Assembly (NCBI RefSeq): GCF_949769195.1
Contig: NZ_OX458333.1
Coordinates: forward strand, 2,108,001-2,172,000
Direction: 5' to 3'
Length of the DNA: 64,000 bases
Origin: Methylocaldum szegediense
Lineage (GTDB): Bacteria > Pseudomonadota > Gammaproteobacteria > Methylococcales > Methylococcaceae
The translations under genes and the position numbers were made by a program. Numbering within the stretch: position 1 is the first letter of the stretch; each line of letters begins with the position of its first letter. Under the pieces are notes generated by a model. The model saw nothing but the letters and a program-made list of their open reading frames with translations, had not been told where the DNA came from and made no database searches. Positions 12,175-49,509 of this stretch are shown one piece after another.

Positions 12175-14187
12175 TCACTCCGCGAATAGGGCGTCCACAA
12201 ATTTCCGCGCATCGAAATCCTGCAGATCATCGATGCCTTCCCCGATACCGATAAACCGTATCGGCAGCCCGAATTGCTTGGCCAGGGCGAAAATAACACC
12301 ACCTTTAGCGGTGCCGTCGAGCTTGGTGAGCGCGATCCCCGTCAGTCCGACCGCTTCGTTGAACAGCTTGGCTTGCGAGATGGCGTTCTGACCGGTACCC
12401 GCATCGACCACCAAAAGCACCTCGTGCGGCGCCGTCTCGTCCAGCCTGCGCATGATACGCTTGATCTTGCCGAGCTCCTCCATGAGATTGGTTTTCGTAT
12501 GGAGACGCCCCGCGGTATCGGCAATGAGCACGTCGACACCTCTAGCCTGAGCGGCCTGCACCGCATCGTAAATGACCGACGCCGAATCGGCTCCGGTATG
12601 CTGGGCGATCACCTGGACATTGTTCCGCTCGCCCCAGGTCTGCAACTGCTCTACCGCAGCGGCGCGGAACGTATCGCCGGCCGCCAGCATGACGCTGTAG
12701 CCCTGGTTTTGAAGACGTTTGGCGAGCTTGCCGATGGTCGTGGTTTTGCCCACGCCGTTCACGCCCACGACCAGAATGACGAACGGCCGGGTCTCGGCCG
12801 GAATCTCGAGCGGCATGCTGACGGGCCGAAGAATGTCGTACAAATACTCGCGGAGACTGGCGGTCAAGGTGGAGGCATCGGCGAGCTGATCCCGTTCCAA
12901 GCTTTCCGTCAGATGACGAATGATGTCCTGAGTCGCCGTCACGCCAACATCGGCCATTAGTAACTGAGCCTCAATGTCGTCCAGAACATCGCGATCGATC
13001 GCCTTCTTGCCGAGCGCGAGGTTTCCGAGAAACCCGGTAAGACCACTGCGGGTTTTCCCAAGCTGCGTCTTGAGCCGAGCGAACATGCCCTCCGGCGTGG
13101 GCCGCGCAGGCACCTCTTCGGCGGGAATCGGCGGCACGATAGGCGGAACGACCTCGCCCACTGGCGCGGCGGGGATGCGTTCAACGGCCTCTTCGCGCGC
13201 CGGCGCTACGGCCTCGACTCGGCGGGGCAGGCGCAGATAGACATAAATATGAACCAGATTCAGCCATAGCAGCGCGGCTACCGCATGATGCGCGACCGCG
13301 ATAGCAACGGGCAAACGCAGCAGCACGGTCGCAATCCCTAAACTGATCTGCACCAGCAGCAGAAAGCTGAGGAGCACGCCGGCCTTGCTCAAGCGGGGCA
13401 CCTTACGGTTCGAGGTGACCGCGAAAGCCAGTATGCTGAGCACCACGAACGCCACGACGGCCCCAATCCGATGCGCCCAGTGGATGGCGACACGAGCGTC
13501 CAAGGGCAACAAGCTCTGCTGATAATTGGGACCTATCCCGCGCCAGAGCGTAAACCCTTGGGCGAAATCGGCATCCGGCCGGTAGGATCCCATGCATGTT
13601 GGGAAGTCCGGGCAGGACAACCCGGCGTAATTGGATGAGGTCCAGCCGCCCAGGAAGAGCTCCGCAAACAGCAGCAACAAGGCAAAGGCACTTAAGCGAC
13701 GTAGCCATCGGGTATCTTCGCTCGGCGGTGTCAGTGGACTCACTACGAGGTACAGCCCATACAGGAGGGCGAGCGTGAGGAACCCAACCAGCAGATGGGC
13801 CGTGACGATGGCGGGCATCACTAGAAACTTCACGGTCCACATGCCCAGAAGCGCTTGTCCGACCACGAGCGCCAGGCTTGCGTAAGTCAATGCGATCGCC
13901 TTGCCGCGGTTTTCCCGCACCCGAAACACCAGCCCCGCCAGAACCAGCACGGAAATGCCCAAGGCGCCGGCCAGGTAACGATGGATCATTTCCTTCCAGG
14001 CTTTCGCCGCGTCAAAAGGCGCCTGGCGCAAGGCTTCGGCAATCTGCGGCTCCTCGACGATCATCTTTTCGTAACAGCCGGGCCAATCGGGGCAGCCGAG
14101 TCCCGCGTCCGAAATACGGACATAAGCGCCCATCGCCATGACGCAGAAGGCGAGAATCAGAGAGAAAAGCGTTAGGTATCTGAACAT
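12175..14187 (-). CDS. Heme A synthase (CtaA/COX15) fused to signal-recognition-particle receptor FtsY
   Basis: One uninterrupted frame of 670 codons encodes two unrelated proteins. Residues 1 to about 325 are CtaA: eight membrane helices and the paired haem-ligand histidines in IHRYLAG, VTAHLLVG, HWAHRIG and AVAHHAV. After a Pro/Val/Glu-rich linker (about 326-366), residues 367-670 are a complete FtsY NG domain. This part has the membrane-binding helix FARLKTQLGKTRSG, the N-domain GKKAIDRDVLDDIEAQLL, the P-loop GVNGVGKTTT near 472, the AAGDTFRAAA and DTAGR boxes, and TKLDGTAKGG. ATG 14187 is preceded by AGTAGGACTT; the frame is open to 14271. FtsY would be anchored through CtaA instead of its own acidic A domain. 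An internal ATG at 13088 could also yield free FtsY, but its Shine-Dalgarno spacing is poor. Confidence 0.9.
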   Translation of the reverse strand: MFRYLTLFSLILAFCVMAMGAYVRISDAGLGCPDWPGCYEKMIVEEPQIAEALRQAPFDAAKAWKEMIHRYLAGALGISVLVLAGLVFRVRENRGKAIALTYASLALVVGQALLGMWTVKFLVMPAIVTAHLLVGFLTLALLYGLYLVVSPLTPPSEDTRWLRRLSAFALLLLFAELFLGGWTSSNYAGLSCPDFPTCMGSYRPDADFAQGFTLWRGIGPNYQQSLLPLDARVAIHWAHRIGAVVAFVVLSILAFAVTSNRKVPRLSKAGVLLSFLLLVQISLGIATVLLRLPVAIAVAHHAVAALLWLNLVHIYVYLRLPRRVEAVAPAREEAVERIPAAPVGEVVPPIVPPIPAEEVPARPTPEGMFARLKTQLGKTRSGLTGFLGNLALGKKAIDRDVLDDIEAQLLMADVGVTATQDIIRHLTESLERDQLADASTLTASLREYLYDILRPVSMPLEIPAETRPFVILVVGVNGVGKTTTIGKLAKRLQNQGYSVMLAAGDTFRAAAVEQLQTWGERNNVQVIAQHTGADSASVIYDAVQAAQARGVDVLIADTAGRLHTKTNLMEELGKIKRIMRRLDETAPHEVLLVVDAGTGQNAISQAKLFNEAVGLTGIALTKLDGTAKGGVIFALAKQFGLPIRFIGIGEGIDDLQDFDARKFVDALFAE

Positions 14188-14276: not shown

Positions 14277-14879
14277 TCAGCCGATCTGGGATGCTCGAAG
14301 CAAATGTTTCAAATCCTTCAATAGGCCGTAAGGATCGAAGCCGGAGTCATACCACAGCGCCGCATTTCCGAGTGGATCAATTAGGATCACCATGTCCTCA
14401 GCCAACGGTTTTCCGACCGCCGCAGTCAACTTCTCCTCCAAGGAATCGCTCTTTACCGCCAGTAACAAGGTTTCGTCCTTCTCGAGTACGGGGCGGAGAT
14501 CGGCGGCGACCGAATCGCTCGCAATCAGCAACAAACGGCGCACTCGCGGAATTTCTTTATTCAGCATGAGCCGGACCTGCTTGGTTTTGTGTAGGGCCTC
14601 GGCGCAGCGATCACCACACTGATCCGAAATCATATGGAGCATTAGCCAGCGCCCCTTGATCTCCGACGACAGTTCAGCAACGCCGACGGGATGAGCGGCC
14701 AGTTCGCCATAATCGATGGGGCTCGGCGGCAGGATCAAGCTACCGTAGTTGCTGCGCTTGGTGATCAGCTGGGGATTTCGGGCGTAATACCAGGCCAGCC
14801 CAAAAGGAATGATGGAGATGAGGGCGATCAGGATGATCAAGGCGCGATTTCGCCACAGAGAGTTCTTTGCGATAGCCAT
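14277..14879 (-). CDS. Membrane-anchored cox-cluster protein with CxxxC
   Basis: This 200-residue protein has one N-terminal membrane helix (about 12-31) and a soluble, presumably periplasmic, domain. The domain resembles a thioredoxin or SCO fold: WLMLHMISDQCGDRC with a CxxxC pair, then LLLIASDS and EDMVILIDPLGNAALWYD. The same unnamed gene lies between SURF1 and ctaA in Pseudomonas-type clusters, so a role in cytochrome oxidase assembly, perhaps copper or thiol chemistry, is inferred from context. Its stop is 89 bases from the ctaA start. Confidence 0.75.
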   Translation of the reverse strand: MAIAKNSLWRNRALIILIALISIIPFGLAWYYARNPQLITKRSNYGSLILPPSPIDYGELAAHPVGVAELSSEIKGRWLMLHMISDQCGDRCAEALHKTKQVRLMLNKEIPRVRRLLLIASDSVAADLRPVLEKDETLLLAVKSDSLEEKLTAAVGKPLAEDMVILIDPLGNAALWYDSGFDPYGLLKDLKHLLRASQIG

Positions 14880-14902: not shown

Positions 14903-15634
14903 TTAAGAGACTACTGCCTTCGTGCCCGCTTTGATGCCGTGACGAACATACAGCACCAAGGCAACCGCTGCGAACAGAAACCATTGCAGCGCGTAACCCA
15001 GGTTCTTGCCAGGATCGAGGCGTGTCTCCTTCCACGCCCGGGTATAAGCTTCGGCCGCCGTGTCATCCGCGAGAACCTGGTACGGAAGGACCGGATAGCC
15101 GAGCCGTTCGCCGATACGCGCAGGGTCGACGAGCTGGACCACAGCCGGCCAGCCAGCGCTCGGTATTTCGGCGCCTTCCAGTTTCAAACCGACCCTGGGA
15201 AAGCGGTCCACCATGCCGGTAATCCGAACGCTGGGTTGACGAATCCTGACATCGGGCAACTCGGCCCGGCTGGCGCCCATAGGCACCCAGCCTCGGTTCA
15301 CTAAGACCGCCGTATCGCTTCCCTTGATACGCAGGGGGGTCAGCACGTGGTAGCCGGGATTCTGCTGATAAACTTGGTTATCGAGCAGAAACTGATGATC
15401 GACGTCGTACTCACCGGAAACGACAACGCGCCGGTACCGAATATCGTCCAGGCTCCGCTGTTCCGCATCTAGAATCAGCGGCTCGTCCTGCATCCGCTGC
15501 TGCTGCAATTCGATCAGGTTCGTCTTTTCGTCGGCTCGATGCAGTTGCCAAACACCTAAAGAAATAAACAGCGGAAGGACCGTCATCGCAATCAGCGACG
15601 CGGTCAGGCCCGGTTTAAAGCTATAATCACGCAA
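14903..15634 (-). CDS. SURF1 family cytochrome oxidase assembly protein
   Basis: SURF1 proteins help insert haem A into cytochrome c oxidase subunit I. The protein has 243 residues with two membrane helices, near 9-28 and 212-232, enclosing a periplasmic domain. Family motifs are visible: GVWQLHRADEK, YRRVVVSGEYD, GYHVLTPLR, VLVNRGWVP and the C-terminal NLGYALQWFLFA. It is the first gene of the minus-strand SURF1, CxxxC protein, ctaA run. Confidence 0.93.
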   Translation of the reverse strand: MRDYSFKPGLTASLIAMTVLPLFISLGVWQLHRADEKTNLIELQQQRMQDEPLILDAEQRSLDDIRYRRVVVSGEYDVDHQFLLDNQVYQQNPGYHVLTPLRIKGSDTAVLVNRGWVPMGASRAELPDVRIRQPSVRITGMVDRFPRVGLKLEGAEIPSAGWPAVVQLVDPARIGERLGYPVLPYQVLADDTAAEAYTRAWKETRLDPGKNLGYALQWFLFAAVALVLYVRHGIKAGTKAVVS

Positions 15635-27059: not shown

Positions 27060-28369
27060 CTTGCTCCGCCACCGACCAGTACTGTCTGGATCTTGTCCGG
27101 ATCGATCCTCGACCGGAAAGCCCGCTTGATATCCTCACGGGTCACTGCCTGCACCTTCTCGGTAAACTTGGCGAGGTAATCCAGAGGACGATTGTAAAAC
27201 GCGACGGCGGCCACCTGCTCGGTAAGTTTCCGATTGCTGTCCAAGCGCAAGACGAAACCGCCAACGATATTTTTCTTAGCCGCCTCCAACTCTTTGTCGG
27301 TCGGGCCGTTCGCCACGAAATTCTTGATGGTGTCCAAGGCCACGCGCAGGGCTACCTCAGCCTTGTCGTTGCGGGTCTGGAGCCCCATCTCGAACGGCCC
27401 GACCTCCCGAAGCGGCATGAAATAGCTATAGGCGCTGTAGGAGAGGCCGCGCTTCTCCCGGACCTCTTCGCTGATGCGCGAAACCAGGCCGCTGCCACCC
27501 AGGATGTGATTGCCTACGTAAAGTGGGAAATAGTCGGGATCATTCGCCGCCAACCCCAGAATTCCCGCACGCACGTGGGTCTGCTCGGACGGGAATTGCT
27601 GCTTGATGACTCCGGCCGCCTTGACCGGTGTAGGCGACGGCAGCGCCGGCGGAGCGGTGCCTTTCTCGAGTCCCGACAGCAATTTTTCGGCGATGGACTC
27701 CGCGTCCGCTCGAGTCACCTCGCCCACGATCACGACGATGGCATTGCTCGCCACGTAGAAACGCTTGTGGAAATCGACCAGATCCTCCCGGGTCAAGGGC
27801 GTTACGGTTTCAGTAAACCCTTCCTGTGGATGCGCGTACGGATGATCTCCATAGAGTGCCTGAAAAAACGCGATTTCGACGAGTTCGTCCGGTTCCTCGC
27901 CGCGCTGCTTGATTGCGAGCAACGTCCGGTTTTTTTCCCGCTCGAAGTCTTTCTGGTCGAAGCGGGGATGAGCGAGGATTTCCCGAGCCGTTTCCAGGAC
28001 GACCGCGAGCTTTTCAGGATGGGTCAGACTACGCAGCGACAACCAGGCCGAATCCCGAGAAACGCCGGTACTGAGGGATGCACCAACGTTCTCAAGCCGC
28101 TGGGCAATGGCATCGGCATCCCAATCACCCGCACCGGTATCGAGCATGCCGGAGGTGAGAGCCGCGAGACCAAATTTTTCGCCGTCGCGGGCGCTGCCGG
28201 CGTCGAACACGATCTTGACATCCAGCAGCGGCAGACCTTCGGTCCGCACGAAGTAGACACGGCCGCCCTGCGCGGAGACCCAGTGCTGGATTTCCGGCAC
28301 GGCGTGGACCGGTGCGCTGATCAGCACAAACAGAAATACGAGGCATTGGCACACGTGTTTAACGGACAT
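27056..28369 (-). CDS. M16-family peptidase-like protein without the zinc motif
   Basis: A 437-residue protein with a signal peptide (about 1-23, ending VHA) and two M16 half-domains. The position of the zinc motif HxxEH reads GLAALTSGML, so metal binding and catalysis should be lost. It probably acts as the inactive partner of the HxxEH-containing protein encoded immediately upstream, with which it overlaps by 11 bases. A conserved C-domain motif is present (GGSGLVSRISEEVREKRGLSYSAY). Periplasmic location inferred. Confidence 0.9.
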
Positions 28370-29741
28370 GGTCGCCCCCCATCGGTGCAGCCTCTTCCGG
28401 CGCTTTCGCCCCTTCGGGCAATGGCAACGGCTCCAGATACCCCACGGTCAGTCGGTCATCGATCAGGTATTTCTGGGCGACCTTTTGGACCTGTTCAGCA
28501 GTCACAGCATTGACCTTGTCCACGTATTCCCGGACGGTTTGCCAGCCCAATCCAACGGTTTCCGTCGCGCCGAGTTGCATAGCCTGATAAAACATGGAAT
28601 CTCTCTGATAAATGTGGTGAGCCAGCACTTGCGCCTTGACTCGCTCTAACTCTTCAGCGGGAATCGGTTCCTCCTGAAGACGGCGGATTTCCTCGCCGAA
28701 AGCTTTTTCCAAAGCCTGCAAGGTCTTACCTTGGGCGGGCGTCCCCTCCAGCGTGAACAAATTCGACAAGCGAGAATAAAGATGGTAGCCCGCCCCTGCG
28801 GATGCGGCAATCTGATGCCCACGCACCAGACGGCTAGATAGCCGTGCGCTGTTCCCGCCGTCCAGAATACCGGCCGCTACCTCTAAGGCATAAGCCTCCC
28901 AATCCTCTTCCCCTACCGTCCGCAAGGCGGGTGTCTTGTAACCCATCACAAGATACGGCAGCTTGGCCGGCTGACGAACAATGATGCGGCGCATGCCCAA
29001 TTGCTCGACCTCACCCCGCGGCTTGACCACCGGCAGCTTGCTGGGTTTCAGTGGGCCGAAGTATTTCTTGGCCTGCGCGAAAACCTCCTGCGGATTCACA
29101 TCGCCCACCACGACCACCGTAGCATTGTTCGGCGCGTACCAGAGCTCGTACCACGCCTTGAGATCGTCGACGGTTAATCCGCTGATGTCATCCGGCCAGC
29201 CGATGACCGGATTCTTGTAAGGGCTGTTGGTATAGGCGACAGCCTCAAAATGCTCTTCCATCTTGGCGCGCGGTTGGTCGTCTGTACGCAGCCGGCGTTC
29301 TTCCAGAACAACTTGCTGCTCTTTTTCGAACTCCTTCTCGGTTAGAACGAGATTCCGCATACGGTCGGCTTCCAGTTCGAAGCTGACCGGAAGCTTAGTT
29401 TTTTCCAAAGTCTGGAAATAGGCGGTATAGTCTTGCCCGGTGAAAGCGTTTTCTCGACCTCCGTTTGCTGCGATAATACGCGAGAATTCGCCCGGCGGAT
29501 GTTTTTCGGTACCCTTGAACATCATGTGTTCGAGCATGTGCGAAATGCCGGTGATGCCGCCATGTTCATAACTTGCGCCCACTTTGTACCAGACCTGCGT
29601 GACGACTGCCGGCGCACGGTGGTCTTCCTGGACCAAAAGCTTCAACCCGTTATCCAGCCGGAACTCATGAACCGCAGGCTCAGCAGCATGAAGCGAAAGC
29701 GGTAGAACCAGCAAGGCAAGACGGAGTCCGCGAAACTGCAT
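28359..29741 (-). CDS. Zinc-dependent M16 peptidase
   Basis: A 460-residue periplasmic metallopeptidase. ATG 29741 has AGGAGAG upstream and starts a signal peptide (MQFRGLRLALLVLPLSLHAA). The catalytic motif HMLEHMMF lies near residue 70, with the distal Glu in the following 80 residues (LEADRMRNLVLTEKEFEKEQQVVLEE). The C-domain has the R/Y substrate motif. It forms an active/inactive pair with the downstream gene. Its start is 81 bases from the divergent cyoE, where Pseudomonas would have ftsY. Confidence 0.92.
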   Translation of the reverse strand: MQFRGLRLALLVLPLSLHAAEPAVHEFRLDNGLKLLVQEDHRAPAVVTQVWYKVGASYEHGGITGISHMLEHMMFKGTEKHPPGEFSRIIAANGGRENAFTGQDYTAYFQTLEKTKLPVSFELEADRMRNLVLTEKEFEKEQQVVLEERRLRTDDQPRAKMEEHFEAVAYTNSPYKNPVIGWPDDISGLTVDDLKAWYELWYAPNNATVVVVGDVNPQEVFAQAKKYFGPLKPSKLPVVKPRGEVEQLGMRRIIVRQPAKLPYLVMGYKTPALRTVGEEDWEAYALEVAAGILDGGNSARLSSRLVRGHQIAASAGAGYHLYSRLSNLFTLEGTPAQGKTLQALEKAFGEEIRRLQEEPIPAEELERVKAQVLAHHIYQRDSMFYQAMQLGATETVGLGWQTVREYVDKVNAVTAEQVQKVAQKYLIDDRLTVGYLEPLPLPEGAKAPEEAAPMGGDHVR

Positions 29742-29822: not shown

Positions 29823-30737
29823 ATGAACTCGACGACTCATATCGAATCCACGCATGCCGTTTCCTGGAGAACTTATCTCGCCCTGTGCAAGCTCAAGGTC
29901 GTCGGCCATATCGTGTTCACCGCTGTGATCGGCATGTTTTTGGCCGTTCCGGGACTACCTCCATTGGTCGTTTCGCTATGGGCGAGCCTTGGGATCGGTC
30001 TCGCCGCCGCGTCAGCCGCCGCCCTCAACCATTTCCTGGACCGCCGCGCAGACGCCGAAATGGTGCGCACCCAGAACCGCCCGCTGCCTTCAGGGCACGT
30101 TCAGCCGAACCAGGTGGTGATCTTCGCCGCCATTCTGGGCACACTCTCGATGGCGATTCTGTTGCTGTTCGTAAACGCGCTAACCGCGCTTCTGACCTTC
30201 CTTTCGCTGATCGGCTACGCGTTCATCTACACGGTTTATCTGAAACGCGCGACGCCGCAGAACATCGTGATCGGCGGCGCGGCGGGCGCCGCCCCTCCAG
30301 TTCTCGGGTGGTGCGCCGTGACCGGCGAGGTGCATCCGTACGCCCTGTTGCTGTTTCTGCTGATCTTCACGTGGACCCCGCCCCATTTCTGGGCCTATGC
30401 GATCGCAAAGCGCGATGATTACGCCAAGGTGAACATCCCCATGCTGCCCATAACCCACGGTGTGGAGGTCACGCAGCTGCATATCCTGCTCTATACCATA
30501 TTGCTGGTAATCGTGAGCCTCTTCCCGTATCTCACCGGCATGAGCGGTTTTCTTTACCTCGGGGCTGCCGTGGGGTTCGGAGCCGGCTTCCTGTACTACG
30601 CAATTCGCCTCAAAAGAACGGCTGACAACAAGCTGGCCATGAAAACGTTCGGCTATTCGCTGGTCTATCTGGTCGGGATTTTTTCAGCCTTGTTGATTGA
30701 TCATTACGTGCCGCTCATCGCAAGTCTGCCCCGATAG
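29823..30737 (+). CDS. cyoE: Protoheme IX farnesyltransferase
   Basis: Converts protohaem to haem O, the substrate of heme A synthase. This 304-residue UbiA-family membrane protein has about nine helices. The first Asp-rich motif is NHFLDRRADAEMVRT and the second is YTVYLKRATPQNIVIGGAAGAAPP; KRDDYAKVNIPMLP follows. In Pseudomonas this gene directly follows ctaA; here it is 15 kb away and divergent from the M16 gene. Confidence 0.95.
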   Translation: MNSTTHIESTHAVSWRTYLALCKLKVVGHIVFTAVIGMFLAVPGLPPLVVSLWASLGIGLAAASAAALNHFLDRRADAEMVRTQNRPLPSGHVQPNQVVIFAAILGTLSMAILLLFVNALTALLTFLSLIGYAFIYTVYLKRATPQNIVIGGAAGAAPPVLGWCAVTGEVHPYALLLFLLIFTWTPPHFWAYAIAKRDDYAKVNIPMLPITHGVEVTQLHILLYTILLVIVSLFPYLTGMSGFLYLGAAVGFGAGFLYYAIRLKRTADNKLAMKTFGYSLVYLVGIFSALLIDHYVPLIASLPR

Positions 30738-36731: not shown

Positions 36732-39371
36732 ATGACGACCGATCGTGCCTATTGGAAATATTGGGGGAAAGCGCGCAAGGAAGGTGAAGCCGGAACACCC
36801 TATCATTTGTTGCCCTATCACTGTTTGGACGTTTCAGCAGTTGCCTGCGCTTGGTGGGATGCGAGCACGGCTATACGACGCTGCTTCACCGCATCCTTCA
36901 GCTACCCAGGATTAAATCAAAGTCAACTTCGTGCGTGGGTAATGTTTTTCGTTGCCCTGCATGACCTCGGTAAGTTCGACCTGCGATTTCAACTAAAAGC
37001 GCCTGAAGCACTTGCCGCCGCTTGGCAGCCACTCGGTCCAGAAGACCATGGATTGGCAACAAGAGATATTATCGGGTTCGATCATGGATGGGCCGGGTTG
37101 GCATGGGCGAATCGGGAATATCGAGGCTGGCTTAACTGCCGGGATACCGACCGGGAAACTTGGAGTCAGTGGCAACCTTGGCTCGCTGCTGTAACGGGGC
37201 ATCACGGTGACTTCTTTGTACCCGAAATGCCCGGTTTGGTGCCCGATACGGACGAAACGCTCGCCGAACATGACCGGAACGCACGCATTACCTTTGTTTG
37301 CGAATTAGCCCGCCTGTTCTTGGAGCCGGCAGGATTGAGTCTGCAACAGCTTCCTCCAAGTTGTTCTCCCGCTGCTCAAGCATGGCTGGCCGGTTTTTGC
37401 TCGGTATGCGACTGGATCGGTTCCAATGAGGTTTTCGACTACCGATGCGATCCTCAGGTGGATTTAGCCGAATACCTGACAGAACGTATCCGCAAAATTC
37501 AGGATGAAAGCCTCTTATATCGCTTTGGCTTACTGGGAAAAAGCTCTGATTACCGTGGGCTAGGCGCCTTGCTCCAGACGGGTGAATCCCCGCGCGGGGT
37601 CCAGGTTGAGGTGGACAATCTACCGACCACTCCCGGGCTGACATTGATCGAAGCACCTACAGGCAGCGGCAAGACCGAAGCCGCGCTCGCTTACGCTTGG
37701 CGATTGTTGGATCAAGGCGTGGCTGACTCCATCGTCTTCGCACTTCCAACCCAAGCCACTGCCAATGCTATGCTGGCAAGGGCCGTAGCCTTCGCGGAAC
37801 GGATATTCGGCACGGCAAACCTAGTGTTGGCCCACGGTAATCGTGAATTTAATGAAACCTTCCACCGACTTGTGGAGAGCGGCCGGAATACGTCGGCACA
37901 AGGTAAGACCGAGGCCGCCACGCAATGCGCCTTGTGGCTTGCCAGCAGCCGCAAGCGCGTTTTTCTTGGTCAGTTTGGCGTTTGTACAGTGGATCAGGTG
38001 CTGCTGTCCGTTCTTCCGGTACGGCACAAGTTCGTGCGCGGCTTCGGGTTGAACAAATCGGTGCTTATCGTGGACGAAGTTCACGCCTACGACGCCTACA
38101 TGCATGGACTGCTCGGGGAGGCGCTGCGCCGCCAGAAAGCCACCGGCGGCAGTGCAATCCTGCTCTCCGCCACCTTACCTGCCAGTGTTCGCGCCAAGTT
38201 GTTTGAAGCTTGGAAGTGCGATTGTACAGAAGCCGCGCCATATCCTGCCCTGTGGCATGCCGGCGAAGGTTCACCCGTTTGCCTAACCCTACCCGATGAT
38301 CAACGCCCTCCCGAACGCGAAGTCTCTATTGAATACCTGAAGTTGCCAGGTGCCTTCCCGAACGCTGATCTGCTAGACCGTATCGTGGCAGCCGCCAAAG
38401 CAGGGGCACGGGTGGCGGTCATCATGAATCTGGTGGATGACGCTCAGCGGCTCGCCCGCGAGCTGCGCCGCGAGACAGAGCTGGAAGTAGACATCTTCCA
38501 TGCCCGCTACCGTTTTATAGACCGGCAACAAAAGGAGCAAATCGTACTCGAGCGTTATGGTCGCATCGCGGTACGAGGGAAAGGACGCATTCTCGTCGCC
38601 ACACAAGTGGTTGAACAAAGCCTCGATCTGGATTTCGACTGGATGCTAACCCAAATTTGTCCGGTGGATCTGCTGTTCCAGCGTTTGGGCCGTCTCCATC
38701 GCCATCAACGTAATGATCGCCCTGCGGGATTCGAATTGCCACTTTGTACGGTGATCTCGGTTGAAACCGAGGACTATGGATTGCACAAGCTGATTTACGG
38801 CAATACGAGAGTTCTGTGGCGAACCGAACAATTATTGGCGGGAACTGACCGAATTGTATTCCCGGAAGCTTATCGAGATTGGATAAAAGAAGTCTATTCC
38901 GAGAATGTTTGGGACGACGAGCCCGATCTTGTCTATGCTGATTATTTAGGCTGGAAAGACGATCAATCCAGGCGCGAAGCAGAGGCGAAGCGGCTAACTA
39001 CTATGACCGTCAGCGCCTTCCGAGATGAAGATCACACCGTCACCGGGCTTACCCGCGACAGCGAAATGAGCCTAACCGTACTACCTCTCCTCTCAAATGG
39101 CCGCCTATTAGACGGGCGACCACTAAACACTTTGAACGAATGGGAACTCGCTGAAACCCTCAATCTCAATGCGGTTCCCGTGCCCGCTAGTTGGGAGAAA
39201 CAGCTAAAGGAATGCCGTGTGGAACAAGAAGGAGACCTCGCGGGCTACCTGCAATTGGAAATGACCAACGACGAACAAGACGGGTGGACGTCGATAGACG
39301 GGAAATTCCGTTACACAAAGGATTTTGGATTAGAACGGAGATGTCACCGCCGATGTAAAAATGACCCCTGA
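36732..39371 (+). CDS. cas3: CRISPR helicase-nuclease Cas3 (type I-E)
   Basis: Cas3 is recruited by Cascade to unwind and degrade target DNA. The 879-residue protein has an N-terminal HD nuclease (HCLDVSA, HDLGKFD near 77, HHGDFF), SF2 helicase motif I APTGSGKTEAA near 313, DEVHAYDAY, SATLP and motif VI QRLGRLHRHQR, then the C-terminal domain. An IS21 element enters at codon 870. The last native residues NDEST are replaced by an IS-encoded CHRRCKNDP, so the protein is almost unchanged and probably still active. Confidence 0.94.
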   Translation: MTTDRAYWKYWGKARKEGEAGTPYHLLPYHCLDVSAVACAWWDASTAIRRCFTASFSYPGLNQSQLRAWVMFFVALHDLGKFDLRFQLKAPEALAAAWQPLGPEDHGLATRDIIGFDHGWAGLAWANREYRGWLNCRDTDRETWSQWQPWLAAVTGHHGDFFVPEMPGLVPDTDETLAEHDRNARITFVCELARLFLEPAGLSLQQLPPSCSPAAQAWLAGFCSVCDWIGSNEVFDYRCDPQVDLAEYLTERIRKIQDESLLYRFGLLGKSSDYRGLGALLQTGESPRGVQVEVDNLPTTPGLTLIEAPTGSGKTEAALAYAWRLLDQGVADSIVFALPTQATANAMLARAVAFAERIFGTANLVLAHGNREFNETFHRLVESGRNTSAQGKTEAATQCALWLASSRKRVFLGQFGVCTVDQVLLSVLPVRHKFVRGFGLNKSVLIVDEVHAYDAYMHGLLGEALRRQKATGGSAILLSATLPASVRAKLFEAWKCDCTEAAPYPALWHAGEGSPVCLTLPDDQRPPEREVSIEYLKLPGAFPNADLLDRIVAAAKAGARVAVIMNLVDDAQRLARELRRETELEVDIFHARYRFIDRQQKEQIVLERYGRIAVRGKGRILVATQVVEQSLDLDFDWMLTQICPVDLLFQRLGRLHRHQRNDRPAGFELPLCTVISVETEDYGLHKLIYGNTRVLWRTEQLLAGTDRIVFPEAYRDWIKEVYSENVWDDEPDLVYADYLGWKDDQSRREAEAKRLTTMTVSAFRDEDHTVTGLTRDSEMSLTVLPLLSNGRLLDGRPLNTLNEWELAETLNLNAVPVPASWEKQLKECRVEQEGDLAGYLQLEMTNDEQDGWTSIDGKFRYTKDFGLERRCHRRCKNDP

Positions 39372-39427
39372 CACCGAAGTAAATTTGACCCCTTGGGGGA
39401 AAATGGCGGCTTTTTTGAGCCGCGGAA

Positions 39428-41229
<1,802 letters not shown>

Positions 41230-41315
41230 CTTTTGGGCCTCAAGGGGTCAATTTTACTTCGGCGATAAACCCTCAAAAGGGGTCACTTTTCAGTCGGCGT
41301 TGACACGGAGAAACG

Positions 41316-42824
41316 ATGAATCTACTTGAAGATCCTTGGATTCCAGTGCGCGCCGACGGCGGCACGGGAACTTTCGAACTGCTGACGTTCCGGCAACTCC
41401 TCTGCGAAACTGGCAACTGGCAGGTTAGCTTGCCGCGTGACGATCTGGAACTGGCCTGCGTGCAATTACTGGTGTGCATGACTCAGGTGATGTTTTTACC
41501 GGAGAACGATGCTATCTGGCGGAAGCGGTTGACTGACCCTTTGTCACCTGAAGAGTTCGCTGCCGGTATAGAACCATGCCTCGATTGGTTCGATCTCGAT
41601 CATCCAACTCAGCCTTTCATGCAATCGCGCGGAGTGAAGGCCACGGAGGAGACTCCCATTCAGAAACTGCTGATCGGACTGCCGGAAGGAAACAACCACG
41701 CTTTCTTCAATGAGGCGGGCGAAGTACGCCATCTATCGGGAACAGTGGCAGCAATTGCCCTATTCAATCAGGCCAGTAATTGCCCCAGTTTCGGCGGTGG
41801 CTTTAAGGGCAGCCTACGTGGAGGCGCGCCGATCACCACACTGGTGTACGGAGAGAATTTGCGCGAGACCGTCTGGCGTAATGTACTCACGCGCCCTTGC
41901 TTGGCCGAGCGCCAAATCCCAATGCCGGGTTTGAAGCAGGATCGCCCGACCTGGATCGTGCCCATCCAGGAAAAAGCCACTATTCCTTGGAATACCATCA
42001 GTTTGGCGCGAGGGCTATTTTGGCAGCCGGCACGGGTAGAGTTGGTAAAGTCGCAAACTGCCATGCCCTGCGATGTGCTGGGCGGAGCGCCGTTGTTCGG
42101 ATACGTAGGATTTCGCAAGGAAAAATTCAACTTTACCGCGGAGGGAGTGTGGCCACACCCTCATGGCGCAATGACCATGGCCTTGAAAAAAGGCCAGCTT
42201 GAACAAAAGTTCGCGAGCTTTACGACTACTGCGCCGGCTTGGACCCAACTCTCGGAATTCGTCGTCGCCAGAAGCATCAATGATCCCGGAGCCAAAGAGG
42301 GTTCCATTCCCGCTGGACCGGTTACACAGGCTAGCAAGCTAGGCGAAAGCGGTTTACACCTGCTCGTTGGAGGCTATCGCACCAATAAAGCTTCCGTATT
42401 GGAGCGGCGCCACGAAATGATCAGCCTTGCCCAAGGCTGGCGGGACGACAAAAGCCGCCTACCCAAGTTGGTCGAAATGGGCAAAGAGGCAAAAAAAGCC
42501 TTACGCGGCAAACTTTATTTCGCCGTGCAGGGCAACACAGACAAAGGCCTTAAAGGTATCGGTGCCGCCATACATGAAACCGCCGAGAAACTTTTTTTCG
42601 CCCGAACCGAAAGTCTGATCCACAAGACCTTTTCCAATGAACTCACATTCCGGCAGTGGGCCACCGCTCGCAAGGCTTTTGCCCTGGAATTGGCTGCCCA
42701 TTGCCGGGCAATCTTCGAGGAGTTAACCGCCCCTTACGCGACAAAACCCGAATTGATCCCGGTTATCGCCTTGGCGCGGCGTGGACTGAATAACGATCTC
42801 AAAAAGCTAATAGAGGAAGCATGA
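41316..42824 (+). CDS. cas8e: Cascade large subunit Cas8e (Cse1/CasA)
   Basis: The large subunit of type I-E Cascade, which reads the PAM and recruits Cas3. The 502-residue protein starts MNLLEDPWIPVRADGG and has the FNQASNCPSFGGGFKGSLRGGAP region, with a C-terminal four-helix bundle. The ATG lies ten bases after the IS21 end. Before the insertion, the cas3 stop would have overlapped this start by about 15 bases (CGATGAATCTACTTGA), so coupling has been lost. The next gene overlaps by four bases. Confidence 0.93.
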   Translation: MNLLEDPWIPVRADGGTGTFELLTFRQLLCETGNWQVSLPRDDLELACVQLLVCMTQVMFLPENDAIWRKRLTDPLSPEEFAAGIEPCLDWFDLDHPTQPFMQSRGVKATEETPIQKLLIGLPEGNNHAFFNEAGEVRHLSGTVAAIALFNQASNCPSFGGGFKGSLRGGAPITTLVYGENLRETVWRNVLTRPCLAERQIPMPGLKQDRPTWIVPIQEKATIPWNTISLARGLFWQPARVELVKSQTAMPCDVLGGAPLFGYVGFRKEKFNFTAEGVWPHPHGAMTMALKKGQLEQKFASFTTTAPAWTQLSEFVVARSINDPGAKEGSIPAGPVTQASKLGESGLHLLVGGYRTNKASVLERRHEMISLAQGWRDDKSRLPKLVEMGKEAKKALRGKLYFAVQGNTDKGLKGIGAAIHETAEKLFFARTESLIHKTFSNELTFRQWATARKAFALELAAHCRAIFEELTAPYATKPELIPVIALARRGLNNDLKKLIEEA

Positions 42825-43279
42825 CAGCCGAATTGCCAGATTTTGTCAAACTTAGAGAAATTTACGATGACGAAAGTTTTCCGAGCGGTGCACGCGCCGA
42901 ATTACGCCGAGTTGCCGAACCGGACGACTTGGCGTTTACCCCAGCTCTTTATCGGCTATTCCCCGGCGAACGTCCGAACGACCGCCACTTACGTGTCGCC
43001 TATCTCCTACCCTATGCCAAGCATGCGCCGAATGCGAAATCACTCGGTGCACAGCTGGCGGAAGCCAAAGTTGCAGAAGCACGGGTTATACAAGTAGCCC
43101 GTGCCCACGAACCGCTCGATATCGTCCAATTGCGCCGCCTCTTGACCCAGATTGAAGCCGCAGTGGACTGGTCTGACTTCGGTCGCATGGTCTGGTGCTG
43201 GAAAGAAAAGGACAAGCGAAAGCTCGTCGAGGATTTCTATATCGCCCGCTTTTCCCCCGCCAAAGGAGATAAAGAATGA
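42821..43279 (+). CDS. cse2: Cascade small subunit Cse2 (CasB, Cas11e)
   Basis: A 152-residue helical protein, the small subunit that stabilises the non-target strand. Typical motifs are GARAELRRVAEPDDLAFTPALYRL and WSDFGRMVWCW. ATGA overlaps join it to cas8e and cas7e. Confidence 0.92.
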   Translation: MTAELPDFVKLREIYDDESFPSGARAELRRVAEPDDLAFTPALYRLFPGERPNDRHLRVAYLLPYAKHAPNAKSLGAQLAEAKVAEARVIQVARAHEPLDIVQLRRLLTQIEAAVDWSDFGRMVWCWKEKDKRKLVEDFYIARFSPAKGDKE

Positions 43280-44559
43280 CTAAGAAAAACTTCATCAACT
43301 TCCATGTACTCATTTCCCATAGCCCTTCGTGTCTCAACCGTGACGACATGAACATGCAGAAAACCGCTGTATTCGGCGGCGTCAACCGGGTGCGGATTTC
43401 CAGCCAATCTATTAAGCGGGCGATGCGGAAAAGCCAATATTACGAAAACCACTTCGGGGCGCCTTCTATCCGCACTCGTGAACTCGAAAAACTTATCCCA
43501 CAATTTATCGAGAAGTTGCGCGGTGAATTCGCTCCGGAATTGGTGACCAAAACAATGGAGTTATTCGTAAAAGCCAAGGTCACTGACAATGAAACCGATG
43601 AGTCAGATGGTCAAGAAGAAGCCGTCAGTGATCAAGGCGAAGAAAACAAGAAACTTGCGGTCGCTCCCTGGGCGTTAGAGGAAATTAAGACTCTCTGTCG
43701 CATCGTTAGCTCAGTATCTCTGAACGATGAAGAATTAAGCAAAGCTAGGGAAAAAGCAGCGAAACAAAAAGAATCGAAAGGTAAAGGCAAAAGAAAGAAA
43801 ACGGAGCAAGACTTTATCGACGAAGCATTGACAAAAAAACGCATCAAAGCTGTCCAGGAGAACATTGTTATGGTTCGCAAGGCTATGACTTCCGCGTTGG
43901 ACATCGCCTTGTCGGGCCGCATGGCTACGTCGGGATTGATGACCTCGGTGGATGGCGCACTCGCCGTCGCTCACGCCATCACCACCCATGCCGTCGAACC
44001 GCAGGACGTGGACTGGTTCACCGCTGTCGACGATTTGACCCAAGACGCGGGCGATACGGGAGCAGGACATCTGAATACTCAGCAGTTTTCCGCCGGCGTG
44101 TTCTACCGTTACGCGAGTCTCAACCTGAGACAACTGCAAGTGAACCTGGGATTGATCGACCACATCAAGGCCGAGGAGACCGCCGAGTCCCGCCAACGCG
44201 CGCTGGATATTGCCCGCCATGTCTTCCATTTACTAGCGACGGTGGTGCCTTCGGCGAAGCAACAGTCTTTCGCTGCTCATAACCTGGCGGACTTCGCCAT
44301 CGTCAGCTTTGCCGACCAACCGATCTCGCTAGCCAATGCGTTTGAAACGCCGATCAAGCGCGATTACAAACTGGGGGGATTTCTCAAGCCATCGATCCAC
44401 GCCTTGGCTGATTATTGGGCATGTATCAATCGTGCCTACGGGTTAGAAGAAAAGGGGCGCGCATTCGCGGTCGATGCAAGCCTTGAGGTAGGCGGTAAAC
44501 CCGCTCTAAACAACCTCAAAGCGATGGAAGAGTGGATCGCTGCGGATGGTCAGGAATAA
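43276..44559 (+). CDS. cas7e: Cascade backbone Cas7e (CasC/Cse4)
   Basis: Six copies form the Cascade backbone along the crRNA. The protein starts INFHVLISHSPSCLNRDDMN and shows VRISSQSIKRAMRKS and the DGALAVAHAITTHAVEPQDVDWFTAVDD core. At 427 residues it is about 60 longer than E. coli CasC (363). A charged stretch, acidic (DNETDESDGQEEAVSDQGEE) then lysine-rich (KQKESKGKGKRKKTEQ), near 100-180 accounts for the difference. It lies in the part that corresponds to the thumb/fingers region. Confidence 0.93.
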   Translation: MTKKNFINFHVLISHSPSCLNRDDMNMQKTAVFGGVNRVRISSQSIKRAMRKSQYYENHFGAPSIRTRELEKLIPQFIEKLRGEFAPELVTKTMELFVKAKVTDNETDESDGQEEAVSDQGEENKKLAVAPWALEEIKTLCRIVSSVSLNDEELSKAREKAAKQKESKGKGKRKKTEQDFIDEALTKKRIKAVQENIVMVRKAMTSALDIALSGRMATSGLMTSVDGALAVAHAITTHAVEPQDVDWFTAVDDLTQDAGDTGAGHLNTQQFSAGVFYRYASLNLRQLQVNLGLIDHIKAEETAESRQRALDIARHVFHLLATVVPSAKQQSFAAHNLADFAIVSFADQPISLANAFETPIKRDYKLGGFLKPSIHALADYWACINRAYGLEEKGRAFAVDASLEVGGKPALNNLKAMEEWIAADGQE

Positions 44560-44570
44560 AGGAGGGCTCC

Positions 44571-45248
44571 GTGCCGCGTTATCTGATTCTTCGCTTGGAT
44601 GGTCCCATGCAGGCGTGGGGCACTCACACATTTGAAGATTTTCGACCGTGCAATGCGTTTCCTACACGCAGCGGTTTGCTAGGGTTGTTGGGCGCCTGCC
44701 TCGGGCTAGATCGACGTGATACCGAAGCATTGGAGCAATTGGCAGTGAGCGTCGAGTTTACCGTACGCTCCGATCGAACGGTATTACGACCGGGAGCTAG
44801 TTCACCTAAAGATAAAACCGCTCTTAAGCTTCCCGACTTCCACACGGTAGAGAGTGCACGCAAGGTAGACGGTTCCGCAAACAAGAACCCGGTGGTTTCC
44901 CGACGCGAATATCTATTCGACGCTGCATTCACCGTAGCAATCGGCGAAAAACCTGATGCGCCGATTCCACTGGATAAGATCGCTGAAGCTCTACGGCGGC
45001 CGTATTTTACGCCTGTGCTCGGTAGGCGTTCCTGCCCCATCGCTCGACCTTTACTCGATGGTGATGTAGAGGCAAGCAACGGAAAAGCGGCGCTGATGAC
45101 CGCTGAGCCTTCTGGCGGCCTAATTTACGCCGAAGGCGAGTTAACCTCCGAACAGCCGTTGCGTATTCGCGACGTCCCAATATCGGGCCGGCATCGGCAA
45201 TTCGGCACTCGGCAGGTATATCTCCATAAGGAGGAAACATGTTCCTGA
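44571..45248 (+). CDS. cas5e: Cascade subunit Cas5e (CasD)
   Basis: Caps the 5' handle of the crRNA. GTG 44571 follows AGGAGGG and gives MPRYLILRLDGPMQAWGTHTFED, the characteristic start. The upstream ATG at 44532 lies inside cas7e. Motifs DFHTVESARK, VSRREYLFDAAF and the C-terminal YLHKEE are visible; 225 residues. The end overlaps cas6e by ten bases. Confidence 0.93.
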   Translation: MPRYLILRLDGPMQAWGTHTFEDFRPCNAFPTRSGLLGLLGACLGLDRRDTEALEQLAVSVEFTVRSDRTVLRPGASSPKDKTALKLPDFHTVESARKVDGSANKNPVVSRREYLFDAAFTVAIGEKPDAPIPLDKIAEALRRPYFTPVLGRRSCPIARPLLDGDVEASNGKAALMTAEPSGGLIYAEGELTSEQPLRIRDVPISGRHRQFGTRQVYLHKEETCS

Positions 45249-45862
45249 GCCGTGTGGAAATTCCGTGGGACGTAGTTCGCAATCCCTACGAGATCCATCG
45301 TCAACTTTGGCGCCTGTTCCCTGGTGAGGAAAAAGAAACGCGAAAAAATGCAGAGGAAGCACGCCAAGGATTCCTATTCAGGTTGGAAAGCTATCAGCCC
45401 GGCCGCCCGCTGCGTTTGCTGATTCAGTCTCGGCGAGCGCCGGTGCCTGCAGATGGGTTGAGAATTGTTGGTACGCGGGAATTCCATCCCCAACCGAGCC
45501 ACGGACAGCGCTTAGCATTTCTACTAACCGCCAATCCGATCAAGACCATCATCGATGCGCAGCGAGAGGCCAAGAAGGTTAAAAAATCAGAAAAATGCCG
45601 TGTTCCACTCATCCACGAAACTGAACAACGCAATTGGCTGAAACGCAAACTCATGGGCGCGGGAGAAATCGAAACCGTTGATGTTTTACCCCATGCTCCG
45701 ATGTTTTTCCGCAAAGGCAATCGAGCCGGCAAGCTCGCTACGGTCACTTTTGAAGGCGTGTTACGTGTCATCGACCCGGAATCGTTGGTCAGGCACCTGG
45801 AGAACGGAATCGGCCCCGCCAAAGCCTTTGGCTGCGGCCTACTGCTGGTAAGACGACCTTAA
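45239..45862 (+). CDS. cas6e: crRNA endonuclease Cas6e (CasE)
   Basis: Cuts the repeat hairpin of the pre-crRNA. The 207-residue protein has two ferredoxin folds. His in PYEIHRQLWRLFPG (near 20) is the expected catalytic histidine, and the glycine-rich loop GIGPAKAFGCGLLLVRRP ends the protein. Followed 47 bases later by the antitoxin-like gene. Confidence 0.93.
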   Translation: MFLSRVEIPWDVVRNPYEIHRQLWRLFPGEEKETRKNAEEARQGFLFRLESYQPGRPLRLLIQSRRAPVPADGLRIVGTREFHPQPSHGQRLAFLLTANPIKTIIDAQREAKKVKKSEKCRVPLIHETEQRNWLKRKLMGAGEIETVDVLPHAPMFFRKGNRAGKLATVTFEGVLRVIDPESLVRHLENGIGPAKAFGCGLLLVRRP

Positions 45863-45909
45863 TATGTACACTTGGTGTGTAAAAACCTCCTCTATTTAAG
45901 AGGCAAGAT

Positions 45910-46137
45910 ATGTCGCATCGCATCAATATCGTTCTGGATGATGCTGTTTGGGCACAGTTACAGGAGATTCCCCACGGCGAGCGGAGCAAATTGATCAATC
46001 AATCCCTAGCCGAAACTCTCGCCAGGCGGCGACGGATGGAAGCATTTGCCCGTATACGAGAAAGGAGCATAACCATGGAACCACTAGAAATGAGCACCGA
46101 AGAATGGATTAGGCAGGACCGGGACAATCGCAAATGA
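45910..46137 (+). CDS. Ribbon-helix-helix antitoxin-like protein in the cas operon
   Basis: A 75-residue protein with an N-terminal RHH pattern (HRINIVLDDAVWAQLQEIPHGERSKLINQSLAETLARR) and an acidic/aromatic C-terminal tail (EPLEMSTEEWIRQDRDNRK), as in VapB-like antitoxins that bind PIN toxins. GAGGCAAGAT precedes the start. Its stop overlaps the next start (ATGA). It lies between cas6e and cas1, so it is expected to be transcribed with the Cascade and adaptation genes. Confidence 0.7.
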   Translation: MSHRINIVLDDAVWAQLQEIPHGERSKLINQSLAETLARRRRMEAFARIRERSITMEPLEMSTEEWIRQDRDNRK

Positions 46138-46351
46138 ATGAGGTGGTGACCTTCGGTCTGGGAGAATCGTTCTTTGCCCCCGATTGGCGACGTCAAATCC
46201 TGGCATTGACGACCCGCCATCGCGTCGCCTTCTACGACGCGGCCTATCATGCCCTTGCCATCATCCATGAAGGCATCTTTGTCACTGCCGACGAGAAATC
46301 CCTCAAGGCCGTGGGCAACGATAAGCAAGGCGCGCACTTGAAGAACCGACG

Positions 46352-46355
<4 letters not shown>
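46134..46355 (+). pseudogene. Shortened PIN-domain (VapC-like) toxin
   Basis: A 73-residue frame with the C-terminal half of a PIN domain: LTTRHRVAFYDAAYHALAIIHEGIFVTADEKSLK carries the conserved Asp residues of that half. The N-terminal half with the first catalytic Asp and Glu is absent. MNEVV could be the remnant of a typical MxxVVLDAS start, implying an internal in-frame deletion. Its stop overlaps the cas1 start (ATGA), so it may persist for coupling. Confidence 0.65.
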
Positions 46356-47552
<1,197 letters not shown>

Positions 47553-47656
47553 AGATGCTCTTTAACAGCTTGGATTTTTCGTTTTCTAGGCGGCGATTCG
47601 CCGGTAGAATTTCTGCCGGCCTTTTTCGTCATTTCTAACAATGGGTTAGAAATGGT
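47553..47656 (+). promoter_or_regulatory. CRISPR leader
   Basis: The 104 bases between cas2 and the first repeat are AT-rich. A hairpin-plus-T-tract terminator lies at 47600-47626. A second perfect inverted repeat, TTTCTAAC (47632-47639) with GTTAGAAA (47645-47652), ends four bases before the first repeat and may serve integration or array transcription. Confidence 0.7.
47600..47626 (+). terminator. Rho-independent terminator after cas2
   Basis: GCCGGTAG (47600-47607) pairs with CTGCCGGC (47613-47620), including one G-T wobble. The loop is AATTT, and a TTTTT run follows at 47622-47626. Confidence 0.65.
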
Positions 47657-49454
47657 CTGTTCCCCACGCACGTGGGGATGAACCGGGACCGGAGTCATGG
47701 GCGCACGGACGGAACGCCTGTTCCCCACGCACGTGGGGATGAACCGTCGTTTATCAAAATATTTTCGCACAAAAAGGCCTGTTCCCCACGCACGTGGGGA
47801 TGAACCGCGAAGGTGGAAACCGTTATTTTTTACAGTCAACTGTTCCCCACGCACGTGGGGATGAACCGTTTGGTTTTGCGGTGGGGGCGTTGATGTGACG
47901 CTGTTCCCCACGCACGTGGGGATGAACCTATAGCCATCCGCATACGAGCCACACGCGGCCCCTGTTCCCCACGCACGTGGGGATGAACCGCCACTGAGCA
48001 GGCTATTGATACCTATTATTCCCTGTTCCCCACGCACGTGGGGATGAACCGTCATTCGTTGAGCTGTCAGGCTCTATAACAGACTGTTCCCCACGCACGT
48101 GGGGATGAACCGCAGAAATCGAAGGTGCGACGGCTGATAAGCAGCTGTTCCCCACGCACGTGGGGATGAACCGCTCGGCATCCAGACTGAGGGCTGGATA
48201 GGCTCCTGTTCCCCACGCACGTGGGGATGAACCGTTTTCTCGCCTCGTTATCGAGCTCCTTTCCTACTGTTCCCCACGCACGTGGGGATGAACCGCTGTC
48301 ATCATCCCGGCCGACAAATCCGGGTTCCTGTTCCCCACGCACGTGGGGATGAACCGCCTATTTTCAAAATATTTTCAGCTCGATGCACCTGTTCCCCACG
48401 CACGTGGGGATGAACCGCGCGCCGTCAGCCTCAACGCGCGCCAGTTCATCTGTTCCCCACGCACGTGGGGATGAACCGAGCGGTTGTTGGGGGCCTCAGG
48501 ACTGCGGCGACTGTTCCCCACGCACGTGGGGATGAACCGTTGGCCAGCTGGCGGGCGGCTGGACCGCTAAACTGTTCCCCACGCACGTGGGGATGAACCG
48601 ACGGATCGGCGCATTCCCGCGGGCATTCTTGCCTGTTCCCCACGCACGTGGGGATGAACCGGCATCACAGGCGTTAGCATGGATAGTCAAAAACTGTTCC
48701 CCACGCACGTGGGGATGAACCGTCAGGTTCCCTTTCAGGAACTGACCGCTAGGCCTGTTCCCCACGCACGTGGGGATGAACCGATCGATAGATGAGTAAT
48801 ATCGGTCGGACCAAACTGTTCCCCACGCACGTGGGGATGAACCGGCTTTAAAGCGATTCAAGATGGGCATCACGGCCTGTTCCCCACGCACGTGGGGATG
48901 AACCGCTGGATATCCACGCCCTGGTCACTCGCCGCGTCTGTTCCCCACGCACGTGGGGATGAACCATATGCTGTTGACGTGCGCCATACGAAACCCTCCT
49001 GTTCCCCACGCACGTGGGGATGAACCGATTATCGAGAATACGGGGAAGACGGCCGAGACCTGTTCCCCACGCACGTGGGGATGAACCGCTCGGGAATGGC
49101 AATCCGCTGCACGAGAGTGACTGTTCCCCACGCACGTGGGGATGAACCGCATGCAGGTAGGAGATAGGGTGAATTGGCAGCCTGTTCCCCACGCACGTGG
49201 GGATGAACCGCTCGGGAATGGCAATCCGCTGCACGAGAGTGACTGTTCCCCACGCACGTGGGGATGAACCGGTACTACAACGTACCTAGCCAACATGCGA
49301 TGACTGTTCCCCACGCACGTGGGGATGAACCGACTGCTGATGCGCTCGATGAGATAAAAGATTTCTGTTCCCCACGCACGTGGGGATGAACCAGCTGCAT
49401 CGTCGCTCTCGATACTCGCGTCGGCCTGTTCCCCACGCACGTGGGGATGAACCG
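47657..49454 (+). CRISPR. Type I-E CRISPR array, 30 repeats and 29 spacers
   Basis: The 29-base repeat starts CTGTTCCCCACGCACGTGGG and ends GATGAACCG. It carries the hairpin TCCCCACG-CACGTGGGGA cut by Cas6e. All repeats start exactly 61 bases apart (47657 to 49426), so all spacers are 32 bases. The last repeat base is G in all but three repeats: T at 47929, A at 48966 and A at 49393. Two spacers are identical (49089-49120 and 49211-49242). Orientation matches E. coli with the leader next to cas2. Short frames read from this region on the minus strand are artefacts of the repeat. Confidence 0.98.
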
Positions 49455-49509
49455 GGACGAATACGATGTCGCGTCTCGTGTGATTATTTACCGAGAAGGA
49501 GTGATGCTC

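Follow-up and report, generated by a model that had tools for sequence, protein, structure and literature searches.

A heme A synthase domain as likely membrane anchor of the SRP receptor FtsY in Methylocaldum szegediense and most of its order

Several described forms of the SRP receptor FtsY are tethered permanently to the membrane on their N-terminal side. These are Gram-positive FtsY with a true transmembrane helix (PMC2780400), Streptomyces lividans FtsY with its hydrophobic segment (PMC5533587), and artificial constructs in Escherichia coli (Zelazny 1997, via PMC2780400; TM-FtsY, PMC5533587). Membrane-tethered FtsY is functional in vivo (PMC2780400, citing Zelazny 1997). Attaching a membrane segment to FtsY-NG restores growth of E. 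coli, whereas that segment fails to rescue an FtsY that lacks alphaN1, for which the authors blame promiscuous targeting (PMC5533587). In the eukaryotic SRP receptor alpha/beta, an integral partner keeps the GTPase at the membrane (PMC2780400). Heme A synthase (CtaA/Cox15) has an N bundle that binds the substrate heme O and a C bundle that binds heme b (PMC7327177, PMC12808453), and the fusions of CtaA described in PMC8239418 are with CtaB. Here, we report a gene of Methylocaldum szegediense in which CtaA and FtsY form one protein.

Like E. coli-type FtsY (TIGR00064), the fusion has an NG part with all GTPase motifs, has alphaN1, and is the only FtsY found in its genome; unlike it, an eight-helix enzyme takes the place of the A domain with alphaA1, which predicts an integral membrane protein. 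The fusion would share a permanent N-terminal-side tether with the Gram-positive, Streptomyces, and laboratory forms, but those are single segments or laboratory constructs, whereas the fusion is a polytopic enzyme of another pathway, fixed over most of an order. With CtaA/Cox15, the protein shares a PF02628 domain of eight helices as well as the two Cys pairs and the Glu and His residues of the motif, yet it carries a GTPase of ~300 residues, its substrate bundle is degenerate in many relatives, and its fusion partner is FtsY instead of CtaB. It differs from the eukaryotic receptor in being one chain with an unrelated anchor, not a separate subunit. FtsY with a membrane segment and the CtaA-CtaB fusion are thus already known; new would be a polytopic enzyme that anchors the SRP receptor over most of an order. 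Among the titles and abstract beginnings listed from open-licence papers, no description of a CtaA-FtsY fusion was found, which is weak evidence of absence.

The window, that is, the whole stretch of DNA analysed, comprises 64,000 nucleotides (assembly GCF_949769195.1, contig NZ_OX458333.1, positions 2,108,001 to 2,172,000). The ctaA-ftsY gene occupies 12175..14187 (−), with its ATG at 14187 and its stop codon at 12175-12177, and is free of stops over 670 codons (670 aa). Its CtaA part (residues 1-319; 13231..14187, −) matches Pfam COX15-CtaA (PF02628) at residues 4-311 with 236.8 bits (cut-off, 29.9) and holds the motif residues E66, H69, and H131 in the N bundle and H239 and H300 in the C bundle, together with both Cys pairs (Cys32/38 and Cys192/198). 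The Glu and His residues were assigned by motif and helix number; their Bacillus subtilis CtaA counterparts are E57, H60, H123, H216, and H278 (PMC12808453). A linker of ~45 residues, rich in Pro, Val, Glu, and Ala and predicted to be disordered (residues 320-364; 13096..13230, −), leads to the second membrane-binding helix of FtsY, alphaN1 (residues 365-377; 13057..13095, −), and then to the N and G (GTPase) domains (residues 378-670; 12178..13056, −; TIGR00064, PF02881, PF00448). SRP54_N is matched at residues 387-448 and the SRP54 GTPase at residues 468-668 (260.1 bits; cut-off, 22.7), the NCBIfam ftsY model TIGR00064 scores 371.1 bits (cut-off, 260.7), and the GTPase motifs are present (P-loop K481; DTAGR, 557-561; TKLDG, 621-625). 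The NCBIfam heme A synthase model NF045570 stays below its cut-off (52.4 bits versus 550), a narrow test, as the model is by its name of alphaproteobacterial type. Searched by sequence against the PDB, the CtaA part matched a single entry, 8aw5 ("Heme O oxygenase"), at residues 3-126.

An AlphaFold2 model built from 15 fusion sequences (mean pLDDT, 71.6) has eight long membrane-type helices up to residue 319, pLDDT below 50 across linker residues 322-363, a helical segment spanning 365-377, and an NG part whose fold corresponds to that of the E. coli FtsY structures 2yhs and 6cqp (64% identity); its pTM is 0.47, at which the relative placement of the CtaA and FtsY halves is not to be trusted. 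In place of a single hydrophobic segment before NG, the window protein has eight PF02628-type helices. The first-pass annotation had read CtaA and FtsY as one frame with the key residues kept in both halves and had named 13.1-13.25 kb as the place where a stop or frameshift might separate them. The frame has neither there, and the stop-free 670-aa frame, the Pfam and NCBIfam domains, and full-length relatives bear out a real single frame; the statement on key residues holds for the window protein.

The same fusion was sought in related genomes and found in most of the order, taken to be Methylococcales by named relatives. It is full length in three genomes of the same genus (87-90% identity) and is encoded in one frame each in Methylocaldum sp. 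14B, Methylomonas methanica, M. fluvii, and the chromosome of Methylomonas sp. LW13 (titled complete); Methylococcales and Methylococcaceae MAGs are among the further named carriers. Within an order sample of 201 genomes, a frame crosses the CtaA-FtsY junction in 179 of the 181 genomes of six family groups (150 + 12 + 17 from three successive match sets). Four of the 179 are incomplete yet cross the junction: two at contig ends (G032 and G193), one with a run of N (G198), and one (G195) in which residues 63-435 are matched in a 418-aa frame and the rest lies on another contig. Both exceptions are drafts (280 contigs and 98% complete for G013; 40 contigs and 89% complete for G018). In G013, ctaA and ftsY stand in two overlapping frames (L152, 4300-6118), the ftsY frame being without alphaN1 and the TKLDG stretch, a state that may be real decay or an error of the draft assembly; in G018, the search gave no FtsY, and such CtaA copies as were seen stand free. 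In these two drafts, the fusion may or may not have been truly lost. In the remaining 20 genomes, which form two other family groups (f6, 18; f7, 2), no fusion was seen, and ctaA and ftsY are separate wherever both genes were read.

Outside the order, no fusion was found among the matches listed for a class and a phylum sample, which a far-diverged fusion could escape. Full-length matches among those listed were limited to G000, G012, and G043 in the class sample (369 genomes, 340 matched at 1e-60), all three being members of the order, and to G000 in the phylum sample (398 genomes, 113 matched at 1e-100). Eight FtsY loci outside the order, seven of which have stop-to-stop frames of >600 aa, showed no array of membrane segments before NG and at most one such segment in a simple scan. 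An FtsY from outside the order (L227, genome G520) has an A domain with a long run of PET(R/K)A repeats. Within the carriers, a gene annotated as CtaA or FtsY alone may be one protein.

Gene order points to the origin of the fusion. Unfused relatives have rsmD<pitB<pitA< >ftsY>ftsE>ftsX>rpoH .. <ctaB<ctaA<hyp200<surf1, in either reading direction (read in Cycloclasticus loci L048, L050, and L106, in L054, titled Methylococcaceae bacterium UBA975, and in L144-L148). Family group f5 has pitA< >ctaB .. <rpoH<ftsX<ftsE<[ftsY-ctaA]<hyp200<surf1, with both new junctions present in five genomes (L151, L160, L210, L211, and L213); in L151, neither ftsE nor ftsX stands between rpoH and the fusion. The two orders differ by one inversion of the segment from ftsY to ctaB, with its ends in the pitA/ftsY gap and at the ctaA/ctaB border. 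Exilibacterium (L049), outside the order, has rsmD< >ftsY-ftsE-ftsX-rpoH, which suggests that the unfused order is ancestral. The fusion was thus apparently born from one ancient inversion that joined the two genes: turning ftsY-ftsE-ftsX-rpoH..ctaB would have brought the 5' part of ftsY into frame downstream of ctaA, with FtsY losing its first membrane-binding helix, alphaA1, and gaining the eight helices of CtaA in its stead. In a tree of FtsY halves (118 rows, 105 fused), holding the fused rows together gave a log-likelihood 19.8 above that of the free search (p-AU 0.8), so a single origin is not rejected; the free quick tree placed two fused rows (L163 and L209) among the unfused, and two fused/unfused changes were counted.

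The window keeps both new junctions, namely the fusion itself and a gene that we call pitA, for an M16 peptidase (28359..29741, −; PF00675, PF05193), facing a UbiA-family gene taken as ctaB, for heme O synthase, from PF01040 and gene order (29823..30737, +). In unfused relatives, pitA is divergent from ftsY and ctaB directly follows ctaA; in the window, pitA and ctaB are divergent neighbors that face each other. The gene after the fusion in the window is gspD-like, not ftsE. On the other side lies a gene for a 200-aa protein without Pfam match (14277..14879, −), which separates ctaA from surf1 in most of the loci read, whether fused or unfused. Next comes surf1, for cytochrome oxidase assembly (14903..15634, −; PF02104), which is the same neighbor in unfused relatives. 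By eye, the N-terminus of the 200-aa protein is hydrophobic. Farther along, 36732-47272 resembles by eye a type I CRISPR-Cas cluster, with a Cas3-like helicase followed by Cas8/Cas7/Cas5/Cas6/Cas1-like frames; behind the cas3-like gene, an IS21-like istA-istB pair (39428-41229) has been inserted. At 47519-49572, [17 protein letters not shown] peptides recur in frames that are probably CRISPR arrays read through as protein.

For conservation, 125 fused frames were aligned, rows identical in their last 400 residues were merged to 104, and the window was added (105 rows). The FtsY GTPase residues K481, T482, D557, G560, K622, and D624 are kept in all 105 fusions, window included. Within and next to alphaN1, conservation is nearly as strict (R371, 104/105; L372 and L376, 105/105; T379, 103/105; R380, 104/105). 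Unfused FtsY of f6 and f7 begins with MFGFGKKK or a close variant (e.g., MFGFGNKK), taken as the first membrane helix alphaA1, followed after about a dozen to 30 residues by GFFGRLKxQLxKTR or close (alphaN1); fusions have no MFGFGKKK-like start and keep alphaN1. The fusion thus has no A domain with alphaA1, a feature that TIGR00064 membership does not need. A contrast drawn earlier with a soluble acidic A domain, by which FtsY would normally reach the membrane, proved oversimplified: in the nearest unfused relatives read, a short A domain is accompanied by alphaN1, and what stands of the contrast is the loss of the first helix, the second being kept in the fusion. The linker varies in length and sequence among relatives (53 to 97 residues in the region aligned to 300-385 across the 105 rows), and its dN/dS is 0.32 and 0.42 for the window paired with L035 and L034, versus 0.06 for NG.

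In the CtaA half, the E-x-x-H-R motif retains its Glu in 39 of the 105 fusions, while His69 is kept in 71 and His131 in 76; all three are kept in 33 (window included) and at least one is missing in 72, these counts being approximate in strongly diverged rows, where alignment of the N bundle is uncertain. C-bundle His239 is kept in 103/105 and His300 in 105/105, each residue of the second Cys pair in 102/105, and both C-bundle His in 37 of the 39 rows that lack at least one N-bundle His. By parsimony on the quick FtsY tree, the two N-bundle His require 16 changes and the Glu 18; for these counts, unfused rows except L049 and L051 were coded as CtaA-intact (L124 and L125 so coded without CtaA read), and L222, whose CtaA part contains a run of N, was excluded from the state counts and included in the 105. 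A simple scan gave eight hydrophobic segments in 78 rows, seven in 22, six in four (L201, L220, and L223 among them), and five in one, which is L222 with its N.

Selection on the CtaA half was gauged by dN/dS, with figures from 60 of 290 pairs. For the N and C bundles, respectively, values were 0.16 and 0.15 (window/L035), 0.05 and 0.12 (window/L034), and 0.23 and 0.16 in a decayed pair (L178/L179); CtaA values of ~0.3-1.1 in distant pairs are ascribed to saturated dS. By these ratios, the membrane part is under purifying selection in near pairs, on which ground simple pseudogene decay of CtaA was rejected. Enzyme activity of the fused CtaA probably survives only in some lineages, including that of the window, in whose genus all motif residues are kept.

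Genome-wide searches bear on whether either half has a substitute. A separate ftsY had been named as a finding that would speak against the fusion; no second FtsY was found in the window's own genome, where the other FtsY-side matches (35% and 31% identity; frames of 474 and 462 aa) are ones that we take to be Ffh and FlhF. The fused CtaA is not the genome's sole copy, as might have been supposed: a second, free CtaA of 349 aa (P0003; PF02628, 213 bits) lies at G000:C1:3742890-3743783 (L003:991-2040, −), with Asn in place of the first heme-ligand motif His (EYVNR). PF02628 was searched in 46 genomes, hand-chosen mostly for a decayed N bundle and so not a random set, and all 44 from fused families have a free CtaA (partial in G053, 221 aa; in G163, the model finds only the free one); the unfused G042 and G052 have a single CtaA each. 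Genus g2 has a further free CtaA (G004:C13:504126-505070 and G018:C4:86507-87442; 40% and 43% identity to P0001), which resembles the fused type more than the usual free CtaA does. In 28 hand-chosen genomes, likewise not random and mostly with a decayed N bundle, aa3-type COX1 (TIGR02891) exceeds its cut-off in 25, is truncated at contig ends in G189 and G090, and scores below the cut-off in G042; in lineages with a decayed N bundle (e.g., G197, G170, G151, and G053), COX1 lies on the same contig a few kilobases upstream of the fusion. With aa3-type COX1 and a free CtaA beside a decayed fused site, the demand for heme A presumably persists, without the fused CtaA having to meet it.

The likely reading is that, after one inversion, CtaA became a permanent membrane anchor of FtsY in place of alphaA1, and that the fused CtaA repeatedly ceased to make heme A in other lineages, in which the second, free CtaA could supply it. 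The end of heme A synthase after TM8 faces the cytoplasm. The SRP receptor of M. szegediense and most of its order would accordingly be a polytopic membrane protein, whole and uncut, its NG domain hanging on a flexible linker at the cytoplasmic face and permanently tethered, and keeping FtsY at the membrane would be the function under selection in fused lineages. To judge from its kept residues and the work on tethered E. coli FtsY, alphaN1 would still switch the tethered FtsY to the SRP-binding state; a model drawn from that work predicts retention of alphaN1, as seen in the fusions. The suggestion of the first-pass annotation that a membrane enzyme anchors FtsY thus finds support as the likely reading.

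Other accounts fit parts of the data. An assembly or sequencing artefact, in whose favor nothing was found and which we consider next to impossible, is ruled out by the same-genus genomes, the LW13 chromosome, and the order sample with its junction frame in 179/181 genomes, single-contig G003, G012, and G025 included. One chain might instead be used as two, the linker being cut by a protease or FtsY started internally, with the fusion a neutral accident of gene order. The linker, predicted disordered and fast evolving, would allow this, and in the window's genus alphaN1 opens with an ATG codon that has a 3/6 Shine-Dalgarno match. FtsY of E. coli is itself cleaved at the A/N boundary. Use as two proteins is nonetheless unlikely: between residues 318 and 397, only 20/105 fusions have an in-frame ATG and only 7/105 any start codon with a 5/6 Shine-Dalgarno match, and the lack of a shared internal start speaks against free FtsY by re-initiation. 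Moreover, the fusion is retained in all but two doubtful exceptions, membrane segments persist in fusions that have lost the enzyme site, and FtsY freed from a fusion without alphaA1 would have only alphaN1.

Permanent anchoring by CtaA also has to be set against two readings that give the enzyme half a working role. The C bundle might make the SRP receptor a heme-b cytochrome whose activity is set by heme supply or redox state, along with CtaA-type trimerisation, the receptor itself being an SRP client. We think this quite unlikely; what speaks for it is that the C-bundle His are kept even where the substrate bundle has decayed. If true, new receptors would be inserted only by old ones. Decidedly doubtful, too, is a coupling in which heme A synthase beside the SRP receptor brings insertion of oxidase subunits and supply of heme A to one place, even though the fused gene lies beside surf1, COX1 is near in many relatives, and no motif residue is missing from the CtaA of the window. 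Among the 105 fusions, 72 have an incomplete substrate-site triad, the two His alone take 16 parsimony changes, aa3-type COX1 is still present in genomes with a broken triad, and a free CtaA exists in 44/44 chosen genomes. The broken triads and free copies led us to reject metabolic coupling as a general rule, and with it the earlier proposal that the fusion ties SRP targeting to heme A synthesis.

Cycling of FtsY on and off the membrane has so far been argued from E. coli constructs with artificial anchors. Evolution seems to have run the anchoring experiment once and kept it across most of a methanotroph order, through a fusion of two membrane-pathway genes apparently born by one traceable inversion. 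It left intermediates in the form of unfused outgroups, a family group with both junctions, and lineages whose anchor has lost the enzyme site. Permanent tethering of the SRP receptor would thereby become testable in a native state.
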